Shown here: in pieces, positions 2,222-34,004 of the stretch
Position numbering within the stretch: the stretch's first letter is position 1
Layout of the letters: each line of letters starts with the position of its first letter
Source of the DNA: Candidatus Dormiibacterota bacterium
GTDB taxonomy: Bacteria; Chloroflexota; Dormibacteria; Dormibacterales; Dormibacteraceae
Length of the DNA: 64,000 bases
Reading direction: 5' to 3'
NCBI GenBank assembly: GCA_024280995.1
Contig: JAMXLM010000028.1
Location: 1 to 64,000, forward strand
Program-made: the position numbers and the translations under genes
The notes under the pieces: model-generated
Told to the model about the DNA's origin: nothing
Databases searched by the model: none
What the model saw: the letters and a program-made list of their open reading frames with translations, nothing else

Positions 2222-2980
2222 TTAGCGGAGGGCTTCGACCTCCGCGTCGTTCAGGCGGATCTTCTCCGCTGCGAGGTTCTCCTTCAAATGTTCGAGGGAC
2301 AGCGTTCCCGGGATGGGCAGCATCACTGGGGAGCGATGCAGCAGCCATGCCAGGGTTATCTGCCGCCGCGTCGCACGGTGCACGCGTGCGATCTGGGAGA
2401 GCTTCACGCCGCCGTCGCCGCGCAGCGGAAAGAAGGGGACGAACACGAGGCCTTCGCCGGCGCAGTAGTCGATGACGTCGTCTGAGCGCCGCTCCGTGAG
2501 GTTGTACTCGTTCTGCACGGCGACGATCGGCAGCACTCGGCGCGCCCGCTCGATCTGCTCGATGCCGACCTGTGAGATCCCGACGTGCTTGACCACGCCT
2601 CGATCCTGGAACTCCTTGATCGCGCCGAGGCTCTCCTCGATGGGCGTCTCGGGGTCGACGCGGTGCAGGTAGTAGAGGTAGATGCTGTCCGTGCGCAAAC
2701 GACGCAGGCTCTCCTCGAGGTCCGCGCGCAGCACCTCGGGCCGGCCGCGGCCTGGGCCGCCGAAACCGCCCTTGCTCGCAACGACGACGTTAGGCGGAAA
2801 CGGCGAGATCGCCTCGCCGACGGTCTCTTCGCTTTCGCCGTGCGTGTAGAGGTGTGCCGTGTCGATCAGGCGCACGCCTGCGTCCACCGCCGCGCGGACG
2901 AACTCTACGTTCGCCGGCGTTCTGGTCAGCCGGTTCGTGCCGAGGCCGATTCGGCCGACCTCGATCTCACCGACCTTCAT
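2222..2980 (-). CDS. Aldo/keto reductase
   Basis: A 252-residue cytosolic (alpha/beta)8-barrel NADPH oxidoreductase. The family tetrad is visible: Asp in LIDTAHLY, Tyr in the same segment, Lys in VVVASKGGFGG and His in YLYYLHRVDP. The family reduces aldehydes and ketones; the substrate is unknown. At about 250 residues it is shorter than the typical 280-330. Its ATG overlaps the stop of the TrpB2-like gene by one base (TGATG), which suggests translational coupling and a shared transcript. Confidence 0.85.
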   Translation of the reverse strand: MKVGEIEVGRIGLGTNRLTRTPANVEFVRAAVDAGVRLIDTAHLYTHGESEETVGEAISPFPPNVVVASKGGFGGPGRGRPEVLRADLEESLRRLRTDSIYLYYLHRVDPETPIEESLGAIKEFQDRGVVKHVGISQVGIEQIERARRVLPIVAVQNEYNLTERRSDDVIDYCAGEGLVFVPFFPLRGDGGVKLSQIARVHRATRRQITLAWLLHRSPVMLPIPGTLSLEHLKENLAAEKIRLNDAEVEALR

Positions 2981-31079: not shown

Positions 31080-31306
31080 CCAGCATGTGCTCCCCCCGGA
31101 TGATGCGACCGAATACGAATATCCGGTCTTAGAAGCAACGGCTGAGGTAGCGATTCCGGCGTGATTGCTTACTCGGCCACCTGAAGGCGTTTCCATCTTC
31201 ATGAGGATCGAGGGCGGCTCGCGTCAAGCTGAGCGAGATCGAGCCGATTCATAATCCGGGGGTTGAGCGGGTACGCGCTGAGATTGCGCGCATCTTGCCG
31301 AGAACG

Positions 31307-33331
31307 ATGAAGCGACGCGGTGGACTCATGGTTCGCGCAGCTCTTCTCTTCGTGCTGCTCATTCCCGCGTTGTTCGCTTCGCCGTGGTTCATCGCGTATT
31401 CGGCGCCGCTGCCCGACGTCTCCAACCTGGACAACGGGCTCCCGGGCGACACGATCCTCTTTGCCGGCGACGGCACCAGCGTTCTGGCCGACCTGCACAC
31501 GCCGGGATACCAGCACTACGACGAGTCGCTGTCGGCGATGGGTCCGATCCTGCCCGAAGCGGTGGTGGCGATCGAGGACAAGAACTTCTACAACGAGCCC
31601 GGCATCGATCCGGCGGGCATCGCGCGCGCCGCGTTCATCGACCTCCGCGAGCACAACACGCAGCAGGGCGCGTCGACGATCACCCAGCAGCTCGTGAAGG
31701 TGCGTCTCCTGGGCAACCAGCCGACGTTCCAACGCAAATTGACCGAGGCGCTGCTGGCCTTCGCCGTCGAGCGCCACTACACGAAGTCGCAGATCCTCGA
31801 GATGTACCTGAACAGCGTCTCGTTCGGCAACTCGGCGACCGGTACGGCCGCAGCCTCGTCGATCTACTTCCACAAGAAGACGAGCGAGCTCGACTTGGCC
31901 CAGGCGTCGATCCTTGCCGGCATGGTTCGCGGTCCAACGCTCTACAACCCGTTCACCAACTGGACGGTGACCAAGGCGCGGCAGCACGAAGTGCTCTCGG
32001 CAATGGTCGACGCCGGTGACATCTCGCAGTCGAACGCGGACAAGGCGTTCAAAGAGGATGTAAGCCCGCCGAATCACATGTATCCGCCGATGAACCGAGT
32101 GGTGGCGCCGGGGTTCGTGAGCTACGTCACCAGCGAGCTCAAGCAGACGTACGGCAGCCACACCCTCTACAGCGGCAGTCTTCGCATCTACACGACGCTG
32201 AGCATCCCGCTGCAGAACATCGCCCAGGCTTCGATCTCGGGCACGCAGCGCGACCTCGCGTGGCGCAACGTGCAGCAGGGGGCGTTGGTGGCGCTCGACC
32301 CGACCTCGGGGGCGATTCTGGCCATGGTCGGATCGGCCAACCCAGGCGGCTCCGGCGGCCAGTACAACCTGGCGGTGTGGCCGCCGCGCAACCCCGGTTC
32401 GTCGATGAAGATCTACACGTACTCGGCGGCGATCGCCAGCGGCAAGTTCACGATGACGACGCCCATCCGTGACTCGCCTATCACAGTCAGGATCCCCGGG
32501 CAGCCTGACTACCGGCCGATGAACTACGACGGCTCGTTCCACGGAACCTGCCAGGTGCAGGCCTGCATCGGCAACTCGTTGAACGTGCCGGCGGTCAAGG
32601 TCGAGATCGGTACCGGCATACCGAACGTCGTCGACATGGCCCGTGCGATGGGGGCGCCGCCCTGGCAGCAGAACCCCGACGGAAGCTTCTCGAACAACGA
32701 CGACCCGAACAGCTTCGGCCCGTCGCTGACGCTGGGCGGCTACGGTGAGACGCCGCTGCAGATGGCCACCGGCGCGTCGGTGCTAGCGTCACGCGGTGTG
32801 CTGCATCAGCCGTACGCGATATTCAAGGTGGTGAGCGGCGGAGCGACCGTCTACGAGCACCAGGCTTCCACCGGGCAGCAGGTCATCGATCCGAGGGTCG
32901 CTTTCATCATGTCGGAGATGCTCACGCGCGACCAGAACCGGGCGCTAATCTTCGGCCGCGACTCGCAGCTGGTCATCCCGGGTTGGAACGTCGCGGTCAA
33001 GACCGGGACGTCGGACAGCTTCGCCGACGCCTGGACGGTCGGCTACACGCCGAAGCTGGCGGTGGCCGTGTGGATGGGCAACCCCGACTGGCGCCAGAAG
33101 ATGACCGAGGGCTCAGACAGCTACTACGTCGCCGTGCCCGCGTGGCACCGGTTCATGGTGCAGGCGCTGCCGATCATGGGCTCGGTGGACTGGGGCGCGC
33201 CACCTCCGGGACTGATCTCCGCGTGGGGCAACTACTACCTGCCCGGCACGCAGCCGTCGTCGCAGCCGGGAGCGACGTCTTCGGGCGGTGGAGGCGGCGG
33301 CGGCGGTCACCACAAGAAGGGCGGCGGCTGA
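31307..33331 (+). CDS. Class A penicillin-binding protein (transglycosylase/transpeptidase)
   Basis: A 674-residue bifunctional peptidoglycan synthase: N-terminal anchor (about 8-30), GT51 domain with the catalytic Glu in EDKNFYNEPGID (about 90) and QGASTITQQ (about 120-128), then a transpeptidase domain with SxxK in PGSSMK (about 364), SxN in GNSLN and KTGT (about 565). The C-terminus is an unusual run of Gly with HHKK. The start is set at ATG 31307. It polymerises and crosslinks peptidoglycan outside the membrane. Confidence 0.93.
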   Translation: MKRRGGLMVRAALLFVLLIPALFASPWFIAYSAPLPDVSNLDNGLPGDTILFAGDGTSVLADLHTPGYQHYDESLSAMGPILPEAVVAIEDKNFYNEPGIDPAGIARAAFIDLREHNTQQGASTITQQLVKVRLLGNQPTFQRKLTEALLAFAVERHYTKSQILEMYLNSVSFGNSATGTAAASSIYFHKKTSELDLAQASILAGMVRGPTLYNPFTNWTVTKARQHEVLSAMVDAGDISQSNADKAFKEDVSPPNHMYPPMNRVVAPGFVSYVTSELKQTYGSHTLYSGSLRIYTTLSIPLQNIAQASISGTQRDLAWRNVQQGALVALDPTSGAILAMVGSANPGGSGGQYNLAVWPPRNPGSSMKIYTYSAAIASGKFTMTTPIRDSPITVRIPGQPDYRPMNYDGSFHGTCQVQACIGNSLNVPAVKVEIGTGIPNVVDMARAMGAPPWQQNPDGSFSNNDDPNSFGPSLTLGGYGETPLQMATGASVLASRGVLHQPYAIFKVVSGGATVYEHQASTGQQVIDPRVAFIMSEMLTRDQNRALIFGRDSQLVIPGWNVAVKTGTSDSFADAWTVGYTPKLAVAVWMGNPDWRQKMTEGSDSYYVAVPAWHRFMVQALPIMGSVDWGAPPPGLISAWGNYYLPGTQPSSQPGATSSGGGGGGGGHHKKGGG

Positions 33332-33361
33332 GCCTCCAAAAGCTGCTACGGTGATTGAGCT

Positions 33362-33445
33362 GTGACCGAATCGATGTCCGTTCGCATCCTCACCCGGCGG
33401 CGCGCGATCGACAACGGCCGGTGCAGCACCTGCCTCTGTAGTTAG
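33362..33445 (+). CDS. Cysteine-rich leader peptide upstream of carbonic anhydrase
   Basis: A 27-codon frame from GTG 33362 (or 23 codons from ATG 33374) ends in GRCSTCLCS, with three Cys in its last seven residues and a preceding TRRRAID block. A -10-like TACGGT at 33347-33352 lies 9 bases before the GTG, so the transcript may be leaderless. Actinobacterial leader peptides with Cys-rich ends sense cysteine supply by ribosome stalling and control downstream sulfur genes. The carbonic anhydrase starts 52 bases later behind AAAGGAGG. The frame, the Cys cluster and the spacing are direct observations; the attenuation role is inference. Confidence 0.6.
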   Translation: MTESMSVRILTRRRAIDNGRCSTCLCS

Positions 33446-33497
33446 CCCGACCCAAGCCGTTTCGGACTGACTGAACACAAAAAGGAGGCCGCTCGCC

Positions 33498-34004
33498 ATG
33501 AGCGTTACCGACGAACTCGTCCGCAACAACCAGTCCTACGCCGGCTCATTCAAGAAGGGAGACCTTCCGCTCCCGCCGGCCAAGCAGGTGGCTGTGCTCG
33601 CGTGCATGGACGCACGCCTGGACGTGCACAAGATCCTCGGCCTGCAGGAGGGCGACGCGCACGTGATCCGAAACGCCGGAGGCGCGGTGACAGACGACGC
33701 CATCAGGTCGATCGCCATCTCGCAGCGATTGCTCGGCACGAAGGAGATCGTCCTCATCCACCACACGGGCTGCGGCATGCTCACGTTTCGCGACGACGAC
33801 CTGAAGCGCAAGATCGAGGAGGAAACCGGCATCCGGCCCGCGTTCGCCTTCGAGGCGTTCGGCGATCTCGACGAGGACGTGAAGCAGTCGATCGCGCGCA
33901 TCATGGCAAGTCCTTTCATCCCCAACAAGTCGAGCGTCCGCGGGTTCGTGTACGACGTCACCACGGGGCTCCTCAACGAGGTCGGAGTCCCGGCCGCGGT
34001 CTAA
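33498..34004 (+). CDS. Beta-carbonic anhydrase, Rv1284-like
   Basis: A 168-residue zinc enzyme interconverting CO2 and bicarbonate. Zinc ligands: Cys36 in CMDARLD (with the Asp38/Arg40 dyad), His89 and Cys92 in HHTGCG. From memory it is strikingly like Mycobacterium Rv1284 in length and motifs, a gene next to sulfate-assimilation genes there. AAAGGAGG at 33481-33488 is a strong ribosome site. It lies downstream of the Cys-rich leader and overlaps the GH3 lipoprotein gene tail-to-tail by 4 bases. Confidence 0.92.
   Translation: MSVTDELVRNNQSYAGSFKKGDLPLPPAKQVAVLACMDARLDVHKILGLQEGDAHVIRNAGGAVTDDAIRSIAISQRLLGTKEIVLIHHTGCGMLTFRDDDLKRKIEEETGIRPAFAFEAFGDLDEDVKQSIARIMASPFIPNKSSVRGFVYDVTTGLLNEVGVPAAV

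Follow-up and report, generated by a model that had tools for sequence, protein, structure and literature searches.

In a Candidatus Dormiibacterota bacterium, a short open reading frame (ORF) with a cysteine-rich end stands directly 5' of a beta-carbonic anhydrase (CA) family gene. Two questions follow from this arrangement: does the ORF govern the gene according to the supply of cysteine, and which reaction of the enzyme would such control serve? The original prediction answered yes to the first, and for the second supposed that CO2/bicarbonate chemistry is tied to cysteine status. We analysed the window (the whole stretch of 64,000 nucleotides) together with related genomes.

Layout of the leader and the carbonic anhydrase gene

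The leader ORF of the window is real. It spans 27 codons from the GTG at 33362, or 23 from an in-frame ATG at 33374, and its C-terminus, GRCSTCLCS, is followed by a TAG ending at 33445. The gap of 52 nt between the leader stop and the CA ATG (33498) contains the Shine-Dalgarno sequence AAAAAGGAGG. The predicted frame, peptide end, position between the penicillin-binding protein (PBP) stop and the CA gene, and ribosome site are thus all present. The features of the locus are as follows.

31295-33331, + strand: class A PBP gene, the upstream neighbour, with its stop at 33331 (TIGR02074, 3.6e-134)
33347-33352, + strand: -10-like box TACGGT, putative leader promoter (TANNNT spacing kept across leader loci)
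33362-33445, + strand: leader ORF, 27 codons, GTG start, MTESMSVRILTRRRAIDNGRCSTCLCS (read from the sequence, HMM match and conservation)
33422-33439, + strand: putative control Cys codons TGC (33422), TGC (33431) and TGT (33437) (codon comparison)
33432-33437, + strand: predicted anti-Shine-Dalgarno arm GCCTCT, inside the Cys-Leu-Cys codons (invariant in 6 congeners; local folds)
33439-33473, + strand: predicted inner helix, arms 33439-33445 (TAGTTAG, across the stop codon) and 33467-33473 (CTGACTG) (folds)
33484-33489, + strand: Shine-Dalgarno GGAGGC of the CA gene, predicted to pair with the anti-Shine-Dalgarno arm (sequence and folds)
33498-34004, + strand: beta-CA family gene, clade-D type, 168 aa, putative carbonyl sulfide (COS) hydrolase

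The PBP gene also lies upstream in 4/5 congeners examined and is not thought to be part of the leader-CA unit. A short ORF with Cys codons adjoining its stop, directly 5' of the CA gene, has the layout of the cysteine-responsive leaderless attenuators, and its assignment to that class as a putative leader for the CA gene is well supported by comparison with relatives.

The spacing from TACGGT to the leader GTG is exactly 9 nt, as had been predicted, and because only these 9 nt separate box and start codon, the transcript is probably leaderless. TANNNT was found 6-10 nt 5' of the chosen start in 17/19 leader-bearing loci against 0.46 expected, a figure made slightly favourable by picking the start codon by eye in a few loci. 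Five distant loci of family f2 also have TTGACC at 18-nt spacing. A sigma-70 scan of the window region gave no full promoter; within the window, only the -10 box and its spacing are supported.

Conservation and relatives of the leader

Conservation of the Cys codons and the frame in relatives, the check that the original prediction had proposed, bore it out. Searching in frame for LT[RQW][RC]..D...C (in summary form LTRRxxxDxxxC...C), we found the motif upstream of the CA gene in 20/30 Dormibacteria orthologues, where dinucleotide shuffles gave an expectation of 0.005 per 30. All 20 leaders share L10, T11 and D17, and R12, C21 and C26 are almost as constant; close to the stop, nearly every leader retains one Cys codon or more. 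Among 301 genomes spanning the phylum the leader was confined to Dormibacteria, although orthologous CAs do occur outside the class. None of the 69 CA orthologues from other phyla was preceded by the motif, and Cys-tailed ORFs stood before them at the chance rate (3 versus 2.7 expected). The actinobacterial orthologues examined and those of Dormibacteria family f3 were without the leader. In the CA tree, leader presence is clustered yet patchy, with five changes, which is consistent with an old link between leader and CA that was lost several times; at one locus (L012) a degenerate version of the leader lies upstream of CA. At another, L026 (G100:C180), the promoter TTGACC...TACCGT is retained and the leader ORF is apparently deleted; this is possibly a natural leader-free CA gene or an assembly fault.

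A second CA paralogue of the same family (L033-L042, 38-48% identity) has no leader and may have the housekeeping role; the window's own genome gave no sign of it. A search of that genome for a second cysteine leader gave only weak other matches (C44), which we read as chance.

The closest described systems are the polycysteine leaderless small ORFs of mycobacteria. PMC4633059 and PMC13236596 (citing Canestrari 2020) describe these as attenuators, Ms5788A lying upstream of cysA2 and others upstream of nirA and Rv0485, and propose that a stalled ribosome makes the following gene's ribosome site accessible. The window leader resembles them in being a short, probably leaderless ORF whose Cys codons lie at the C-terminal end and, by HMM, in similar residues; like theirs, leaders of its kind stand before sulfur genes. 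It differs in that its Cys codons are spaced (C..C.C) rather than in a run, in the phylum of its host, and in that the gene behind it encodes a beta-CA family enzyme. NF042933, the NCBIfam model of the Ms5788A Cys-rich leader peptide, matched the window leader at 22.8 bits (E = 5.5e-5), below the curated cut-off of 45 bits, so that the leader is not a member of this family; 8/20 Dormibacteria leaders matched it at E <= 1. NF042934, a 'putative leader peptide' (cis_reg_atten), has the same residue pattern and matched 6/20 Dormibacteria leaders at E <= 1 (best 4e-5); the window leader scored 11.8 bits, under the cut-off of 27. The actinobacterial parallel that had been drawn thus holds for the type of leader; it fails for the host, a Dormibacterium (Chloroflexota, taken broadly).

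Codon choice and predicted pairing with the ribosome site

In 19/19 leaders the final Cys codon is TGT, compared with 20% TGT among Cys codons of the window genes; the p value for this bias is optimistic owing to the shared ancestry of the leaders. Earlier Cys positions are mostly TGC, which makes the preference position-specific. The stretch CTGCCTCTGTAGTTAG does not vary among six congeners while the spacer otherwise diverges, keeping the 3' partner CTAAC(T) or CTGACT in 5/6 congeners, plus GGAGGC. In local minimum-energy folds the Cys-codon arm pairs with the CA Shine-Dalgarno in 6/6 congeners, and shuffling the spacer alone gave a combined p = 6e-5 for this pairing, a value that overstates independence, the six congeners being related. 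When a stalled ribosome was modelled, the Shine-Dalgarno came clearly free in L001 and L006, to some extent in L004 and L005, and hardly at all in L002 and L003. Leaders of the sulfite reductase type have an exact TGCGCC:GGCGCA complementarity in 15/19 cases, TGCGCC standing at the codon that opens the Cys cluster and GGCGCA at the ribosome site. We considered anti-Shine-Dalgarno pairing as a mechanism for the whole class and set it aside: it is clear in genus g1 only and was not seen in other families of Dormibacteria.

Such pairing potential between Cys codons and the CA ribosome site in six congeners suggests translational attenuation of CA that would be relieved by stalling. RNA polymerase would start at or beside the GTG, and ribosomes would load on the 5' end of the transcript. 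With Cys-tRNA charged, the ribosome would complete the peptide and depart, 33432-33437 would pair with the Shine-Dalgarno at 33484-33489, and CA translation would stay low. When cysteine is short, the ribosome would stall at the terminal Cys codons and cover the arm, leaving the Shine-Dalgarno free, and CA would be made.

Other ways in which the ORF could act were weighed against this scheme. The leader might control transcription of CA, through a terminator or Rho, instead of its translation. Between leader and sulfite reductase, L156, L158, L160 and L161 have terminator-like hairpins followed by T-rich tracts, which may mean that transcription attenuation also acts on the sulfite reductase operons; control of termination by Rho and an upstream ORF is also known in mycobacteria, according to PMC13236596 citing D'Halluin 2023. 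The leader-CA interval of the window, however, has no intrinsic terminator on the + strand, and in genus g1 the only structure that is conserved takes in the Shine-Dalgarno, so we regard transcriptional control of CA as unlikely. We give about the same low weight to an arrest peptide, in which LTRR..D would sense cysteine or another sulfur metabolite from within the exit tunnel and the Cys codons would be only part of the signal. The conserved leucine, threonine, arginine and aspartate do lie well upstream of the last Cys codons, and similar residues recur in Streptomyces leaders; against it, nearly all leaders retain a Cys codon close to the stop, and the uniform TGT of the last Cys codon points to sensing by tRNA or RNA. 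That the ORF encodes a small protein with an independent function, such as metal or redox binding, and has no part in CA regulation is very improbable: its residues and cysteines are conserved, as such a protein would have it, but the ORF sits directly upstream of sulfur genes and is constrained at synonymous sites, and PMC4633059 and PMC13236596 (the latter citing Canestrari 2020) have similar leaders proposed or shown as cis attenuators.

The enzyme and its proposed place in sulfur metabolism

The window CA matched Pfam Pro_CA (1.2e-14; 55.3 bits against a cut-off of 25.7). Its PDB matches were 1ylk (Rv1284 of Mycobacterium tuberculosis; 3.4e-66), 3vqj (carbonyl sulfide hydrolase, COSase; 3.5e-39) and 3ten (CS2 hydrolase; 1.5e-24), in agreement with the predicted Rv1284-like enzyme. 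The Pro_CA domain, the zinc motifs, the small size and the best PDB matches are those of a clade D beta-CA, the clade that also includes COSase and CS2 hydrolase (PMC8209446). Zinc ligands and the Asp/Arg dyad are intact (CMDAR...HHTGC, the CxDxR and HxxC zinc site). The COSases of Thiobacillus thioparus THI115 (3vqj) and of the fungus Trichoderma (clade D) belong to the same enzyme family; COSase and the window CA align over the zinc site and its flanking segment (E = 2.4e-33 over residues 2-107). By score the window CA is nearer Rv1284, its closest solved relative, than T. thioparus COSase, and Rv1284 is an active CA that hydrates CO2 well (kcat/Km 3.7e7; PMC6834203). The redox-sensitive Cys61 of Rv1284 (RNAGC) is a Gly in the window CA (RNAGG), as in COSase. 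We rejected phylogeny as a guide to the substrate, as the tree fails to place COSase, which sits on a long unresolved branch.

The sulfur metabolism of the host was then read from its genome, which is 94% complete. Sulfite reductase (NIR_SIR), PAPS reductase/CysD (PAPS_reduct) and ATP-sulfurylase were not found in it, and the search for CysE gave no true copy, only weak hexapeptide matches. A CysM-like cysteine synthase, a CBS-like gene and Cys/Met PLP enzymes are present, which makes for an unusual cysteine route. Nine other genomes with leader-CA likewise have neither sulfite nor PAPS reductase. In family f1, absence of sulfite reductase tracks leader-CA (p = 0.007), and outside f1 the relation is reversed (p = 0.03); with no association overall, complementarity of leader-CA and sulfite reductase was discarded as a general rule and kept for f1 only.

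Profile A1, built from the Dormibacteria leaders, was used to search sister genomes. The leaders found there precede an assimilatory sulfite reductase (PRK13504, 7.5e-184) and then CysH; further targets are TauE/SafE with sulfite reductase, a rhodanese-type sulfurtransferase, and sulfide:quinone reductase (SQR). In Streptomyces the leader profile finds leaders before sulfite reductase-like and rhodanese-like genes (named by eye), the targets expected from mycobacterial work (PMC4633059). Nearly every other identified leader target in Dormibacteria is a sulfur gene. In G070 the order is leader-CA-cysK, with the cysteine synthase A gene cysK (TIGR01139, 376 bits, cut-off 351) beginning 2 nt past the CA stop, and in G078 cysK overlaps the CA stop, also behind a leader; both genomes have what by its layout is a translationally coupled leader-CA-cysK operon. 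A CysD/CysN-like pair (named by eye) about 0.9 kb downstream of the orthologue in a mycobacterial relative (L114) fits the suggested link between this CA and sulfate assimilation.

A sulfur substrate accounts better than CO2 for the leader's occurrence before sulfur-assimilation genes, for the coupling of CA to cysK and for the membership of COSase in the family. The CO2-bicarbonate point of control in the original prediction is probably wrong; more likely, the CA serves cysteine synthesis by hydrolysing carbonyl sulfide. The enzyme would convert COS + H2O to H2S + CO2, and the sulfide would pass to cysteine synthase. COS hydrolysis yields sulfide without reduction, in an organism whose genome has no sulfate reduction genes. 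That the leader responds to cysteine, that control runs in the stated direction and that COS is the substrate are what we infer from these comparisons. On balance we favour, with some confidence, a cysteine-sensing leader that attenuates CA translation, the useful reaction of CA being COS hydrolysis for cysteine. The main alternative keeps the leader and takes the enzyme for an ordinary CA giving bicarbonate or protons needed at cysteine shortage. Its intact active site and the activity of Rv1284 speak for it; the sulfur genes behind nearly all other leaders and the coupling to cysK speak against it, and cysteine synthesis does not obviously require bicarbonate. We hold this alternative to be rather unlikely.

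Carbonyl sulfide is the commonest sulfur gas in air. A wider proposal, for which we would claim a little less than an even chance, is that Dormibacteria use atmospheric or soil COS as a sulfur source, switched on by the leader at cysteine shortage, and that this may be a main cysteine route in members without sulfate reduction. Escherichia coli given COSase can grow on COS; what purpose the breakdown of COS serves in heterotrophic bacteria has been termed unknown (PMC10880591). In Thiobacillus COS is an energy source, and no cysteine control is described for its COSase. Our literature search, mostly outside subscription papers, found none that brings COS together with Dormibacteria or with this leader. 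Expression of clade D beta-CAs correlates with COS uptake by soil, a process to which these enzymes are tied (PMC6330096) and which bears on carbon-cycle models in which COS serves as a photosynthesis tracer. A cysteine-sensing leader and a cysK partner would be genetic evidence that COS breakdown serves sulfur nutrition in at least one soil lineage. If COS is indeed the substrate, bacteria would have a genetically regulated pathway of gaseous-sulfur assimilation, and leader plus clade D gene would give a simple marker for bacteria that may assimilate COS. The leader itself would extend cysteine attenuation by leader peptides outside Actinobacteria.

The SQR-like gene stands behind the leader L150 (G083:C10:27489-27554) and would consume sulfide, not supply it. 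At L180 (G029:C89, about 2511-2585, minus strand) the leader LTQRRVVDFSHCTSAACK lies before a cysteine dioxygenase type I (PF05995, 1.7e-19), a single exception that is the opposite of the expected logic. The leader LTLVRRLWLDNGQCGSAICPLH of L174 (G093:C76:40517-40582) precedes a gene for a small, membrane-like protein that matches nothing in Pfam or NCBIfam. In Streptomyces sp. MBT65, like leaders (L207, L212) stand before ABC transporter substrate-binding-like lipoproteins, which are not obvious sulfur genes.
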